Positions 31,198 through 36,895 of a DNA stretch of 64,000 bases are shown here, in pieces. The notes beneath the pieces are model-generated. The model searched no databases. It was not told the DNA's origin and worked only from the letters and a program-made list of their open reading frames with translations. The translations under genes and the position numbers were made by a program. Location of the stretch: the NCBI RefSeq assembly GCF_003023845.1, contig NZ_PYFT01000001.1, forward strand, positions 4,650,001-4,714,000, written 5' to 3'. The stretch is from Adhaeribacter arboris. GTDB lineage: Bacteria; Bacteroidota; Bacteroidia; Cytophagales; Hymenobacteraceae. Numbering within the stretch: the stretch's first letter is position 1; each line of letters begins with the position of its first letter.

Positions 31198-32397
31198 TTA
31201 AAATTTAGACTGCCTTATTAATTGATAAAACTGCTGCGCTGCATCAGGTAATTGCTCCCGACGAGATTTTAGATTTTGCCTTATTTCTGCCCCGCTTATT
31301 TTTTGTACGCTTAGAGGAAGTTGCCGCACCGATTGATCGATTACCGTATCGGTTAAGGTTTGTTTTAATTCGGTAGCCGTTTGAATAAATTTTTCGGCGG
31401 GCATACTGGCTAATATCAGGGTATCTAAGTGGGCGGAGTTTATGGTTAAACGGGAAACATCGTCCAGTTTTGCCGTGAATTGTCCGAACTTAGGTAAGGC
31501 CCATTTACGGGTAGCTAACCAAGGTAATAATCCGTCGCGGTAATTACAGAAAGCCTGATCGCGATCTTTCGGAATGGGTACGTACCAGGTTTCTGGTCCC
31601 CGCGGGTAAGCGGCCCACATCCACTGCCCCGTATGCCGGTCCCAATCGCCGATTAAAAAATCGAATAAGCGGCATTTTAAATACATTTCTGCATCGATCT
31701 GTAAAGTTTTTTTGTCTAACTTTTGTAACAAAATAGGCGTGGGAAGGATAGCCGTAGCATTTTTTAATTCGGGGTATAGCTCGGGATTATTTTGATACTT
31801 TTCCTCCAGCAAAAATAATTTGCCGCCTGCCCGGGTAGCAGATTGGCCAAATAAAGGATCCTTCGGACGAACGTAACGCAATTGCGGATGGGCGTGCAAG
31901 ATACCGGCCGCCTGCGCCAATACCGGCACTACTAAGGCTCCGTACGGGTTTGCCCCCGAAATTTGGTCGCGCACAAAATGGCCGGCACTGGTTTTTCGCC
32001 AGAACGGGGACAGAATCGATATGGGATCTTTATCTACGGATCGCAAGGCGTAAGTACGGCCAATGGAGTCGCGGAGGGTAAAACTTAAAGTTTGCATGCC
32101 GCCGCCAACTTCTACTATTTTTAAGCCGCCGAACGTTCTGTTTAAATACAAAACTTTTGCTTTAACGGGTACTGCCCAGATGGTCCGGTTGTGCTGGCCC
32201 AAGAAAAAAGTGCCGAATGCCGAGCGGGCGTAATGCGGGCCGGCACTTACTACTACACTATCGGGCAAACCATCGGGGTTGCGGTTCACTATTACCGCCC
32301 GCGGCCGGGTAGGTGGGGAATATTGCCGGAAAAAAAGCCAGTAACATACCAAGCCTAATGTCAGTACTATACAAACTAACCGTATCTGCTTAATCAT
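31198..32397 (-). CDS. Membrane-anchored protein with a predicted kinase-like domain, paralogue of the middle of the 33299-36895 protein
   Basis: 399 residues with an N-terminal anchor (RLVCIVLTLGLVCYWLFF) that places the rest in the periplasm. The body shares an ordered set of motifs with residues about 400-700 of the large fusion nearby: GGLKIVEVGGGMQT, ALRSVDK, VRDQISGANPYGALVVPVLAQAAG, RLFDFLIGDWDRHTGQW and VPIPKDRDQAF. I read these as a glycine-rich loop, an ATP-binding-type lysine, a DxDRHxxQ catalytic loop and a metal-binding Asp, the layout of HipA/FAM20/CotH-type protein kinase-like folds. This is inference; no named family comes to mind. The gene is convergent with the S41 transcript. 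Confidence 0.6.
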   Translation of the reverse strand: MIKQIRLVCIVLTLGLVCYWLFFRQYSPPTRPRAVIVNRNPDGLPDSVVVSAGPHYARSAFGTFFLGQHNRTIWAVPVKAKVLYLNRTFGGLKIVEVGGGMQTLSFTLRDSIGRTYALRSVDKDPISILSPFWRKTSAGHFVRDQISGANPYGALVVPVLAQAAGILHAHPQLRYVRPKDPLFGQSATRAGGKLFLLEEKYQNNPELYPELKNATAILPTPILLQKLDKKTLQIDAEMYLKCRLFDFLIGDWDRHTGQWMWAAYPRGPETWYVPIPKDRDQAFCNYRDGLLPWLATRKWALPKFGQFTAKLDDVSRLTINSAHLDTLILASMPAEKFIQTATELKQTLTDTVIDQSVRQLPLSVQKISGAEIRQNLKSRREQLPDAAQQFYQLIRQSKF

Positions 32398-32608: not shown

Positions 32609-32884
32609 ATGGCCAATAGCGCGCAATACACCGGTATCGACGAATCGGTTTACAGCAATTTAAAACAAAAATTATCTGGTTTTGGCATCGACCTGGAAGG
32701 TAATTCCGGTAAAGTTTCGAAACAAGGAGTTTCTGCGCAGTATGCCTTTGATCCGGCTACGCAAACCTTAAATATTAATAACGTAAATGTGAGTTTTCCG
32801 GCTAGCATGATGTTCAGTCCGGATAAAATTATTGGAATGATATCGGAAGCGGTACAAGGCGCCGGTGGTTCCAAGGTAGCTTAA
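32609..32884 (+). CDS. Small conserved-type hypothetical protein
   Basis: 91 residues, no signal peptide and no membrane segment. It reads as a compact alpha-beta domain (YTGIDESVYSNLKQKLSGFGI, then VSAQYAFDPATQTLNINNVNVSF) and ends in a glycine-rich tail. It has its own promoter and terminator, so it is a real monocistronic gene. I do not recognise a family. It lies between the two genes that share the kinase-like domain, but on its own transcript, so a link is not shown. Confidence 0.7.
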   Translation: MANSAQYTGIDESVYSNLKQKLSGFGIDLEGNSGKVSKQGVSAQYAFDPATQTLNINNVNVSFPASMMFSPDKIIGMISEAVQGAGGSKVA

Positions 32885-33298: not shown

Positions 33299-36200
33299 AT
33301 GATCTCCATTGTTTCTAAGTTGTATTTAGTAATACTTACCACTTGTCTGGTTTTTTTGCTGTCATTAACCGGGTTCGCCCAAAGTCCGGGAACTGTGAGC
33401 GGCAAAGAGCAAGATAACCCGAAGGTGGTGCATACTATTTTTTTGGTAGGGAATACAGGTGCTCCGGCAGATACGGGTGCGGGACCTAAACTCCGTTTGC
33501 TTAAAACCCAGCTGCAAACGGCGGGTAAAGCCAGTAACCTGGTATTTATCGGGAATACCTTTTATCCCCGGCTTTTACCACTAAGTAATGATCCGCAACG
33601 GGCTTCAGTGGAGCAAGCTTTAAAAGCGCAGCTTAACATTTTAAAAGGATATACCGGCCAGGTTCATATCGTTCCCGGCGATCACGAATTAAAAAAGGAT
33701 AAAAATAATGCGAACCGGCACGCCCGTAGTCAGGAACAATTTATTCGGGAGTACCTGCAGAATGAAGATATTTTTATGCCGGCAAGCGGATGTCCCGGAC
33801 CAGAATCAATTGAAATTAACGACAATATCTTACTGGTTTTGTTGGATACCAAGTGGTTTTTGCCCCGTAGTCCTAAAATTGACGAAGATTTAGGTTGTTC
33901 GGTAAACAGCCCGGCGGCGGCCTTGGCCGAAGTAGATGATATTCTAAAAAGTAATCCGCAAAAACAGGTAGTGATAGCGGCCCATATTGCCCAAGACATT
34001 AAGCCTTTTATCTATCGAAGCTTTCAGAAAGGTTACGCCGAAATTTTCCGGCAGCACGCTGGTTTAATTTACACCGAAGATAGCAGCCCTGCCTTAGAGT
34101 ATTCCTGGCAAGATAGCATTAATTACATCCGGACGGGACGTGGTTCGCTTACCCGGAAAATAAAGCAAAAAGTACCGCCGATATTTACCCAGCCGGGACA
34201 TGGTTTTGCCAAAATTCTCTTCTACGAAAATGGAGAGGCTTGGCTTGAGTTCTGGACTGTTAATTCTGCTACTAATGTGACCGGAAAAATGGCGTACCGG
34301 CGCTTACTCATGAAAAAAGCTACTCTGGCCCAGTTAAACGCCCATATTAAACCTGTTCCGGCGCATAATTATAAAGATAGTGTGGTAACCACTAATGCCA
34401 GTAACTTATACCAGGTTGGCAAATTTAAAAGATGGCTGCTCGGTGAGAATTACCGACCCGAATGGGCAACTCCCGTAACGCTCCCGGTTTTTGACGTAAG
34501 CAAAGAAAAAGGTGGTTTAAAAGTAGTACAACGCGGCGGCGGTTTCCAAACCCGTTCGCTGCGGCTGGTAGATGCCAAAGGTAAAGAATACGTAGTACGC
34601 TCCGTCGAAAAATACCCCATCGAAGCTATCCCACGCGCCTTGCGGCGAACTATGGCGGCGGATATTGTAAAAGACCAGATTTCGGCCTCGCACCCCTACG
34701 CACCTTTGGTAGTTCCTACCTTGGCTCAGGTAGCTGGTGTTTACCACACTAATCCTAGCTATGTATTTATTCCGGATGATCCGCGATTGGGTAATTTTCG
34801 CACGGGCTTAGCCAATACCATTGCTTTGTTTGAAGAACGCCCGGACGATGACGAATCTGAGTCACCGCAATTTGGCCGCTCCAAAAAAGTGTACAGCACC
34901 GAAAAAGTGCTCGAAAAAATCCAGGAAGACAACGACGACCAGGTAGATCAGAAAGCCGTTTTACGGGCCCGTTTATTCGATTTTTTTATTGGCGACTGGG
35001 ACCGGCACGAAGATCAGTGGCGCTGGGCCAGTTTTGAAAACGAAAACGGGAAAGGAAAGTATTACCAACCCATTCCCCGCGATCGCGACATGACCTTTTT
35101 CGTGAACCAAGGGATTATTCCGAAGATCGCCAGTCGCAAGTGGATTTTACCTAAAATTCAAGGTTTCGACGAAGCTATTCGTGATATAACTACCTTTAAT
35201 TTTAACGCCCGTTATTTCGATCGTACTTTTTTAACTGCCCTTTCGCTGGGAGAATGGCAAACCGTAGCGGCCGATTTACAGCAGCGCCTCACCGACCAAA
35301 CAATTACCGCCGCGCTTAAGCAATTACCCGCTCCTATTTATAACATCCGGGGGGAAACAGCCATAAATATCCTGAAAGCCCGGCGGGCGAGATTGGTGAA
35401 AGATGCCACGGATTATTATAAATTTTTAGCCCGGACGGTAGACGTAGTTGGGTCAGATAAAGCCGAACTTTTTGAAGTTACCCGCCAGGACGATGAACAT
35501 ACTTTGGTAAAAGTATTTAAAGTAAGCAAGAGCCGGCAAAAAGAGCAGGTAATTTACGAACGAATTTTTAAAACCTCGGAAACGCGCGAATTACGTTTGT
35601 ACGGGCTCGGTGATAACGACCAGTTTATTTTAACGGGTTTGGTAAAAAGAGGAATTCTGGTGCGGATAATTGGTGGTGAAGGTGATGACAGCCTAACCGA
35701 CAGTTCCCGCGTAAAAAGAGGGCCGAGAAAAACTATTATTTATGATACTGCCACCGGCAACCATTTGCCAATAGCCGCCGAAACTAAAAACGAAACTTCT
35801 GACCGCGACGAAGAAATCAATGCGTACGACCGCAAATCTTTTAAATATAATTACCTCGGCCCGCTAGCTTCTATTGAATATAATAAAGATGATGGTTTTT
35901 ACCTGGGCGGCGGTTTTTCAGCCATGCAGCAAGGTTTTAGAAAAGAGCCCTTTGCCGCTTCGCACCGTTTTGTGGCAAACTACGCTTTGGCTACCCATTC
36001 GTTCTTGTTTAATTATGCCGGTTATTTTACCAAAGCTTTAGGCGTTTTTGATGTAGCATTAAACCTGGATGTGAAAACCCGGAACTTTAGCGATAACTTC
36101 TTCGGATTGTCGAACGAATCCATTTACAACCGGGAATTTGATATTGATTATTACCGTTACCGGTCGGAGCGTTACCATTTCAATGTTTTATTAGGTCGCC

Positions 36201-36895
36201 GATGGGGCAAATACCAGCAATTTTTATTTGGACCAGCTTACGAGTTTGTGCAAGTACAACATAAGACCGGCCGCCGACTGGAAGAATTTGATCCCAATAT
36301 TTTAAGTCCCAATGATCCGTTTGCGAGCAAAAGTTACGCGGGTGTGTTGCTTTCGTACGTGTTGGATAGCCGTGATAATAAAACTTTGCCTAACCGGGGA
36401 GCTTATTTGCAGACGGATATGGTAAATTATTTAGGCACGAATAGCACTTCGGTTAATTATTCGCGTATTAATGCTCAAGCTGCTTTTTTTCAGGCGGTTT
36501 ATTTACCGTTTAAAGTTATTCTGGCGGGTCGCGTGGGGGGTGGCACTACGCTCGGCGATTTTGAATTCTTTCAGGCCAATACCTTAGATGGATTGTACAA
36601 TGTGCGGGGCTTCCGGCGGTCGCGTTATTCCGGCCGTACTAGTTTTTACAATAACCTGGAAGCTCGTATCCGGTTGTTTAGCTTTCAGACCTACTTATTC
36701 CCGGGCGAGGCAGGCATGATGGCTTTCCACGATAGCGGCCGGGTTTGGAACAGTCACGAAAAATCAAATAAATGGCACCGGGGTTACGGCGGTGGCTTTT
36801 GGTTTGCCCCGGTAAACTTAATTGTCATTACGGCGGGGTACATGATTTCGGACGAAAATCGACTTCCTTTAATCGGTGCCGGATTTTTATTTTAG
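33299..36895 (+). CDS. Fusion of degenerate metallophosphatase, predicted kinase-like domain and outer-membrane beta-barrel
   Basis: 1198 residues. Signal peptide: 1-28. Residues about 44-340 follow the calcineurin-like metallophosphatase layout (IFLVGNTG, VFIGNTFYPR, IVPGDHEL, LLDTKWFLPRS, VVIAAHIAQD), but the usual metal ligands are altered: GD to GN twice, GNH to GDH, and the GHxH region to TEDSS. It is probably a pseudo-phosphatase. Residues about 400-700 match the 31198-32397 protein (VVQRGGGFQT, VVRSVEK, FFIGDWDRHEDQW near 566, PIPRDRDMTF near 591) and look kinase-like. Residues about 840-1198 form a BamA/Omp85-type surface-antigen barrel (YVLDSRDNKTLPNRGAYLQT, GLYNVRGFRRSRY) ending in Phe. 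The soluble domains would sit in the periplasm, tethered to the outer membrane. Confidence 0.75.
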   Translation: MISIVSKLYLVILTTCLVFLLSLTGFAQSPGTVSGKEQDNPKVVHTIFLVGNTGAPADTGAGPKLRLLKTQLQTAGKASNLVFIGNTFYPRLLPLSNDPQRASVEQALKAQLNILKGYTGQVHIVPGDHELKKDKNNANRHARSQEQFIREYLQNEDIFMPASGCPGPESIEINDNILLVLLDTKWFLPRSPKIDEDLGCSVNSPAAALAEVDDILKSNPQKQVVIAAHIAQDIKPFIYRSFQKGYAEIFRQHAGLIYTEDSSPALEYSWQDSINYIRTGRGSLTRKIKQKVPPIFTQPGHGFAKILFYENGEAWLEFWTVNSATNVTGKMAYRRLLMKKATLAQLNAHIKPVPAHNYKDSVVTTNASNLYQVGKFKRWLLGENYRPEWATPVTLPVFDVSKEKGGLKVVQRGGGFQTRSLRLVDAKGKEYVVRSVEKYPIEAIPRALRRTMAADIVKDQISASHPYAPLVVPTLAQVAGVYHTNPSYVFIPDDPRLGNFRTGLANTIALFEERPDDDESESPQFGRSKKVYSTEKVLEKIQEDNDDQVDQKAVLRARLFDFFIGDWDRHEDQWRWASFENENGKGKYYQPIPRDRDMTFFVNQGIIPKIASRKWILPKIQGFDEAIRDITTFNFNARYFDRTFLTALSLGEWQTVAADLQQRLTDQTITAALKQLPAPIYNIRGETAINILKARRARLVKDATDYYKFLARTVDVVGSDKAELFEVTRQDDEHTLVKVFKVSKSRQKEQVIYERIFKTSETRELRLYGLGDNDQFILTGLVKRGILVRIIGGEGDDSLTDSSRVKRGPRKTIIYDTATGNHLPIAAETKNETSDRDEEINAYDRKSFKYNYLGPLASIEYNKDDGFYLGGGFSAMQQGFRKEPFAASHRFVANYALATHSFLFNYAGYFTKALGVFDVALNLDVKTRNFSDNFFGLSNESIYNREFDIDYYRYRSERYHFNVLLGRRWGKYQQFLFGPAYEFVQVQHKTGRRLEEFDPNILSPNDPFASKSYAGVLLSYVLDSRDNKTLPNRGAYLQTDMVNYLGTNSTSVNYSRINAQAAFFQAVYLPFKVILAGRVGGGTTLGDFEFFQANTLDGLYNVRGFRRSRYSGRTSFYNNLEARIRLFSFQTYLFPGEAGMMAFHDSGRVWNSHEKSNKWHRGYGGGFWFAPVNLIVITAGYMISDENRLPLIGAGFLF

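Follow-up and report, generated by a model that had tools for sequence, protein, structure and literature searches.

An Omp85-type protein of Adhaeribacter arboris with a predicted kinase-fold domain and a decayed phosphatase-like domain

Domain architecture of the fusion protein

We analyzed a 64,000-nucleotide stretch of the Adhaeribacter arboris genome (contig NZ_PYFT01000001.1, positions 4,650,001 to 4,714,000; hereafter the window), in which an open reading frame (ORF) at positions 33299–36895 on the forward strand encodes a protein of 1198 residues. The coding sequence comprises a putative signal peptide, a decayed domain resembling purple acid phosphatases, a predicted kinase-fold domain, a beta-rich region and an Omp85-type barrel. 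An earlier note on this DNA, made from the letters alone, had proposed that a dead phosphatase and a putative kinase are tethered here to a BamA-type barrel. The ORF and the motifs on which that proposal was built are all present, with GGG at residues 413–415, RSVEK ending at K438, GDWDRHEDQW at 565–574 and PIPRDRD at 591–597.

A full-length AlphaFold2 model built from 52 aligned sequences (predicted local distance difference test, pLDDT, 85.4; predicted template modelling score, pTM, 0.82) consists of an N-terminal helix (residues 3–24), an alpha/beta phosphatase-like part (approximately 43–339), a middle domain (355–712), a beta-rich region (713–845) and a barrel (852–1198). All of these features lie on the forward strand. 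The helix falls within the putative signal peptide region (33299–33382), for which cleavage near residue 28 was read by eye. The beta-rich region (35435–35833) runs from the kinase fold to the barrel, with strands up to residue 815 and a short helix at 838–841.

The barrel (35852–36892) matches Omp85 in Pfam with 51 bits, above the cut-off of 24, together with a weak overlapping match to ShlB, and the Pfam scan of the 1198 residues gave no other family. An NCBIfam scan of the whole protein returned a sub-threshold Omp85 match and a single chance match, and phmmer a single chance-level match. Sixteen long strands were counted by eye in the AlphaFold2 model, and the best PDB matches of the barrel in Foldseek are of the BamA/TamA type (best E 4.2e-11), in agreement with the barrel assignment of the earlier note. 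The C-terminal 16-strand barrel that marks the Omp85 superfamily is therefore present, but the accompanying POTRA domain, of which at least one is expected, was found neither as a Pfam match nor as a POTRA-like unit before the barrel in the model, where residues 713–815 form strands only. Omp85 proteins with no N-terminal extension are described in the available part of PMC4104836.

A similar arrangement is known from PlpD, a patatin-Omp85 protein in which an enzyme domain also lies N-terminal to the barrel and is located, according to the available part of PMC11116518, exclusively in the periplasm. PlpD carries a patatin and a POTRA domain, whereas the window protein has two phosphate-handling domains and no POTRA domain in the model. 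By analogy, the N-terminal domains of the window protein probably lie on the periplasmic side of the outer membrane. The barrel could instead export them, giving them access to external nucleotides at the cell surface, and the same source records export as the older view of PlpD. However, its exclusively periplasmic placement of the PlpD domain speaks against export, which we consider very unlikely.

The middle domain

The middle domain (34361–35434, residues 355–712) was assigned a kinase fold from structure prediction and structural comparison. A separate AlphaFold2 model of residues 355–721, built from 74 aligned sequences, has a pLDDT of 90.3 and a pTM of 0.90. All 14 Foldseek matches in the PDB at E<=0.001 are kinase folds, namely CotH (two matches), PI4KII-alpha (five), Helicobacter CtkA (six) and HipT (one). 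The top match is the CotH kinase 5jd9 (E 1.4e-5), and Golgi casein kinase appears at rank 34 with a probability of 0.95. From these matches, and from how strands and helices follow one another, the domain is predicted to have the two lobes of a kinase, much as the earlier note had suggested from the motifs.

Three segments of the domain carry the kinase-type motifs. These are a Gly-rich loop that runs through RSVEK (34535–34612, residues 413–438), the catalytic-loop-like motif GDWDRHEDQWR (34991–35023, residues 565–575), and PIPRDRD with its candidate metal-binding Asp (35069–35089, residues 591–597). Conservation was counted over 129 homologous domains, two of the 131 kinase matches having been dropped because they spanned too small a part of the profile. 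R569 is kept in all 129, E512 and D566 in 128, K438, Q573 and D597 in 127, R434, D568 and D595 in 126, and H570 in 125. Column D105 of the domain, initially of interest, varies (91/129). Exceptions include single changes (such as that in locus L184), the truncated ORF of L094 and a degenerate copy from the same genome (L157). The earlier note had named a structure lacking a kinase-like fold, or homologues lacking the acidic residues of DWDRH and DRD, as outcomes that would speak against it. Since a kinase-like fold is modelled and these residues are near-invariant (126–128 of the 129 domains), neither was found.

The phosphatase-like domain

Purple acid phosphatases hold their metal ions through ligands in five motifs. 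In intact relatives of the window protein these read GD, GDNxY, GNHD, [AG]HHP and GH[DE]H. The phosphatase-like domain of the window copy (33425–34315, residues 43–339) has GN for GD at both 51–52 and 85–86, GDHE for GNHD and AHIA for [AG]HHP, and its GH[DE]H region has been deleted or replaced. The loss of ligands described in the earlier note is thus confirmed. In the eight ligand columns, DDYNHHHH of the intact relatives is replaced by NNYDHHSP, a score of 3/8 in which the last columns align poorly because of the deletion there. An intact paralogue in the same genome scores 8/8, and the window copy falls short of the ligand set of a purple acid phosphatase. Over 91 sequences the scores are nearly bimodal, at 8/8 (7 in one member) or at 5 and below.

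No PF00149 match was found by Pfam in the window protein itself. Among seven relatives scanned, L002, L006 and L043 exceed the cut-off for this family, L003 and L096 fall below it, and L055 and L078 have no match. L006, a standalone paralogue of 399 residues from the same genome, matches the tartrate-resistant (purple) acid phosphatase (TRAP) 1ute around GHDHNLQY (E 0.0011). Judged from these matches and from the eight ligand-type residues of the intact members, the phosphatase is of the purple acid (TRAP) kind, from which the window copy differs in its three remaining ligands and in being part of a membrane-tethered fusion.

We built a tree of 125 kinase domains, leaving out three near-duplicate sequences and a fragment (L046, L051, L081 and the first ORF of L094). 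The phosphatase is decayed in 25 of the 84 scored members, window copy included; the decay seen by the earlier note therefore recurs among homologues, but the usual state of the family is intact (59/84). This count excludes the degenerate L157 and the truncated ORFs of L082 and L109 (first ORF). Another 33 members are phosphatase-less, some of which sit at contig ends (L083, L092). The phosphatase state changes eight times on the tree, and at least five changes are forced by supported branches, although the tree was built quickly and has long branches, and such counts cannot separate gain from loss. The changes are probably losses. Kinase residues are kept in 25 of 26 decayed members, the exception being L157.

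The decayed domain has diverged more than its kinase neighbor. In six decayed pairs the nonsynonymous divergence (dN) of phosphatase and kinase domains was 0.15/0.04, 0.26/0.15, 0.46/0.18, 0.55/0.25, 0.15/0.11 and 0.22/0.09, compared with 0.01/0.02, 0.10/0.09, 0.06/0.06 and 0.16/0.11 in four intact pairs. Synonymous divergence (dS) is saturated in many pairs, and dN/dS values are rough; finite dS for both domains was obtained in two decayed pairs only, where the phosphatase has dN/dS of 0.19 and 0.16 and the kinase 0.05 and 0.08. Because the former exceed the latter, the decayed domain appears relaxed yet constrained. Selection on it would be weaker but still purifying, which matches what is expected of a scaffold.

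The window copy could alternatively be a decaying paralogue with no role. Its phosphatase ligands are lost, and another copy in the genome (L003+L005, L157) is split into two frames and has lost its kinase residues. However, the window copy belongs to a clade of six decayed members (the window, two Adhaeribacter and three Rufibacter; support 100) that keeps full-length frames and kinase residues, and dN/dS of the kinase domain is approximately 0.05 in a Rufibacter pair. We consider this explanation scarcely probable.

A histidine phosphatase gene was considered as a substitute for the decayed domain. Such a gene occurs near 10 of the 25 decayed members (the window not counted) and near none of the 59 intact ones (Fisher p 1.2e-6), lying directly downstream of the fusion in L038, L039, L078, L079, L085, L089, L091, L101, L104 and L107. 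The association has approximately two origins, and an independent-pair test gave a median p of 1. The Adhaeribacter versions have no signal peptide by eye, and the homologue in the window genome is approximately 150 kb away. We did not adopt the substitution and keep it as a lead only.

Distribution and genomic neighborhood of the family

The family was counted in 198 evenly drawn Bacteroidota genomes, of which five were left out of co-occurrence counts as unscorable. Among the matches listed, which extend to E of about 4e-14 for the kinase domain such that weaker ones in other genomes could be missed, a match covering this domain occurs in 70 of the 198 genomes and a match to some part of the query in 81.

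The usual genomic neighbor of the fusion carries PF18967 (PycTM), which the available part of PMC11224242 describes as a Pycsar defense effector. In the present case PycTM mostly occurs as a fusion with an HD domain (HD-PycTM), and its gene is associated with one for an outer-membrane protein. A strong PycTM match (E<=1e-27, a threshold that we set) is present, among the matches listed, in all 48 genomes with a full fusion and in 60 of the 70 with any kinase-domain gene, compared with 3 of the 123 with none; these genome counts ignore relatedness. Any PycTM match occurs in 62/70 and 13/123, respectively, and conversely 60 of 63 genomes with a strong PycTM gene have a kinase-domain gene of the family, again among the matches listed. 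Linkage was measured in 26 genomes, approximately one per genus, picked by hand from the 48. In 20 of these a PF18967 gene is found no more than 5 kb from the fusion (0.12 expected by chance), and in 23 no more than 10 kb away (0.20 expected). The HD plus PycTM genes exemplified by L156 (4608–5816, reverse strand) and its homologues are thus both a frequent neighbor and a phyletic companion of the fusion.

Genes near the fusion were clustered for 80 loci of named genomes. HD plus PycTM occurs at 41 loci (two members Pfam-checked) and an SdiA-regulated/NHL-type propeller at 25. A class III cyclase cluster, into which unrelated short ORFs (a response regulator, for example) were also drawn, occurs at 23. 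Neighbors were also counted by phosphatase state with our own profile labels, after removal of duplicates and with the own-genome copies included in the phylum-sample set. In the named-genome set HD-PycTM is near 26/33 intact, 11/22 decayed and 0/20 phosphatase-less members, and in the phylum sample near 20/26, 1/3 and 4/13, respectively. Cyclase-profile genes are near 16 of 59 intact members (9/33 in the named-genome set and 7/26 in the phylum sample). In the seven of the phylum sample, L163, L164, L165, L167, L169, L172 and L174, which form one genome group with PycTM in a separate short ORF, a protein of 650–657 residues that is labelled cyclase by profile only follows the fusion directly.

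A polyphosphate kinase gene (PPK1) is near 14 of the 59 intact members (10/33 in the named-genome set and 4/26 in the phylum sample, three members Pfam-confirmed), several of them from the same genera. In L173, HD-PycTM, PPK1, the propeller, the fusion and a 784-residue gene are consecutive on the same strand. These neighborhoods favor an alternative in which the kinase fold, instead of phosphorylating with ATP, catalyzes another transfer, for example of a nucleotidyl group or from a donor such as a lipid or polyphosphate. Most members have no PPK1 nearby, however, and we regard this alternative as unlikely.

Proteins of approximately 784 residues like that in L173 (12262–14655) are found near many other fusions (L057 7920–10241 and others), accompanying 7/33 and 13/26 intact members in the two sets. 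Two members that were scanned have no Pfam or NCBIfam match.

Paralogues and neighboring genes in A. arboris

The genome of 7.25 Mb, whose nearest named relatives are Adhaeribacter, contains the window fusion, the intact paralogue (1282 residues), a split degenerate copy (812 + 386 residues), a standalone kinase-fold protein and a standalone phosphatase. The only PycTM gene of the genome is approximately 1.5 kb from the intact paralogue, and PPK1 approximately 4 kb away on the other side. The degenerate copy (L157 7443–11170) is a third fusion with frames of 812 and 386 residues and a kinase loop that reads GDWGRQPDNW. In L006 (1375–3476) the standalone, intact purple-acid-type phosphatase gene lies beside a convergent gene for a DAGK/YegS-type lipid kinase.

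The standalone kinase-fold protein is encoded in the window (31198–32397, reverse strand). It has 399 residues and a hydrophobic N-terminus, keeps the catalytic-type residues and is divergent from the fusion. Of three Rufibacter loci, two have a gene of this kind next to the fusion, and the pair was not found at Adhaeribacter locus L038, where the flank is sufficient. Between the two window genes lies an ORF of 91 residues (32609–32884, forward strand) with similarly placed homologues in two Rufibacter loci (L040, L041). Ten other window neighbors were scanned with Pfam. Eight are ordinary (MTHFR, RNase P protein, M61 and S41 peptidases, SIMPL, SDR, PfkB and aldolase) and two have no match. 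Promoter and terminator scans gave near-chance numbers (9 versus 14.8 expected and 13 versus 9.7 expected) and were not used. A scan of viral contigs matched 17 stretches, with no relative among them.

Proposed role of the fusion

Domain order, fold, residue conservation, the several changes of phosphatase state and the genomic linkage of the family were computed directly. Upon these we base the following interpretation, which we hold with middling confidence: the window gene encodes a paralogue within a widespread outer-membrane protein family of Bacteroidota that has a periplasmic kinase-fold phosphotransferase, and the phosphatase of this copy has become a pseudo-enzyme scaffold. In the standard form, the protein would be secreted and anchored by its 16-strand Omp85 barrel, with two domains in the periplasm, a phosphatase of the purple acid type and a phosphotransferase of atypical kinase fold. 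A protein, lipid or lipopolysaccharide of the envelope would receive phosphate from the kinase fold, and the phosphatase would take it off. The inner-membrane HD-PycTM protein would be a partner, joined in some genomes by polyphosphate kinase and cyclase. In the window copy the kinase fold would remain the conserved working part, beside the gene for the standalone, membrane-anchored kinase-fold protein.

Several observations weigh against this interpretation. The 14 Foldseek superpositions are loose (query template modelling score 0.35–0.45, root-mean-square deviation 7.6–11.5 A). A PDB profile search with the middle domain gave two chance-level matches (E 0.41 and 1.1), and Pfam scans of this domain in 15 members gave four chance-level families, each in one of the 15. 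Comparison by hhalign gave probabilities of 0.51% against CotH (14 sequences) and 0.18% against HipA (20 sequences), and because of this failure we claim no kinship to any particular kinase family. The catalytic-loop residue is Gln rather than Asn, the loop reading DxDRHxxQ with Gln in 127 of 129 domains; the DRHxxN quoted in the earlier note is DRHxxQ in this family. Kinase residues are lost in three distant phosphatase-less members (L195, L197, L198). ATP is not expected in the periplasm. Overall, no more than 12 of the 25 decayed members and 4 of the 33 that lack a phosphatase have HD-PycTM nearby. Near the window copy itself no HD-PycTM, PPK1 or cyclase gene was found in the 23–48 kb part of the window. 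Evidence for a module is for this reason that of the family and not of the window gene, a paralogue outside the usual neighborhood of its family.

CotH kinases of the spore coat provide the best structural match and have a similar Asp-x-Asp-x-x-Phe pattern. They differ in location, and there is no Pfam or profile-profile signal between them and the window domain. PI4KII-alpha, CtkA, HipT/HipA and Fam20 provide kinase-fold matches at Foldseek ranks 3–14 and, for the Golgi casein kinase, at rank 34, with approximately 10–14% identity and with no profile signal to HipA. We know of none of these in an outer membrane. No family-profile match to CotH (PF08757), HipA (PF07804) or Fam20C (PF06702) was found by Pfam in the window protein or the 15 members; a genome search for Fam20C matched 0/149, but carries little weight as its control matched nowhere. 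As modelled, the middle domain is kinase-shaped, yet fits no named kinase family. CotH is presented, in the available part of a review (PMC12189002), as an atypical kinase whose fold departs from the typical one.

Several of these points would suit the main rival interpretation, in which the kinase fold transfers no phosphate but serves, as a conserved domain, to bind a phosphorylated ligand (lipid, lipopolysaccharide or nucleotide), and the protein acts as a sensor or scaffold in the outer membrane. The lack of ATP expected in the periplasm and the exchange of Asn for Gln fit such a domain, and the phosphatase of the same protein demonstrates that a domain here can lose its ligands and stay constrained. 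However, D566, D568, D595 and D597 are retained to a degree beyond the need of a binding role. We consider a binding-only domain possible but clearly the lesser explanation, and retain the reading as a putative phosphotransferase, for which the catalytic-type residues argue.

Since ATP is not expected in the periplasm, the donor may be another compound, polyphosphate being one candidate. It is solely the PPK1 neighborhood in a minority of members that suggests polyphosphate. A more elaborate proposal is a trans-envelope module for phosphate signalling or envelope modification, in which the kinase-fold transferase of the Omp85 protein would be active in the periplasm with a non-ATP donor, possibly polyphosphate, the acid phosphatase would work against it, and both would be coupled to the inner-membrane HD-PycTM protein and cyclic-nucleotide synthesis. 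The window copy would then be one-way, with the transferase half only. We offer this as a speculative and rather unlikely extension.

Fusion of a phosphatase to an Omp85 barrel is not itself new. Heinz and Lithgow 2014 (PMC4104836), in the part available, define an Omp85 'Metallo' subfamily by PF00149, term it metalloprotease and describe it as conserved at genus level only. Relative L043, which passes the cut-offs for both PF00149 and Omp85, resembles this subfamily, whereas the window copy has no PF00149 match, and the word 'kinase' is absent from the main text of that paper. A Riemerella outer-membrane paper concerns, in its available part, a different protein. Searches of an open-access literature library listed no account of a kinase fold in this Omp85 family or of its tie to PycTM. 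The earlier note had taken the whole combination to be undescribed; this applies, as far as we found, to the kinase identity of the central domain and to the PycTM partner, the phosphatase-Omp85 fusion having been catalogued in 2014.

If the proposed role is correct, an outer-membrane-tethered enzyme of kinase type poses the question of its donor, where ATP is unexpected, and that of its target in the envelope. The family is widespread in Bacteroidota but little studied, and the tie to PycTM gives each of the two families a candidate partner. The linkage data give no verdict either way on a defense role of this partner. PycTM is known as a defense effector (PMC11224242, in the part available), and the companionship with HD-PycTM may point to a role of PycTM outside phage defense in Bacteroidota.

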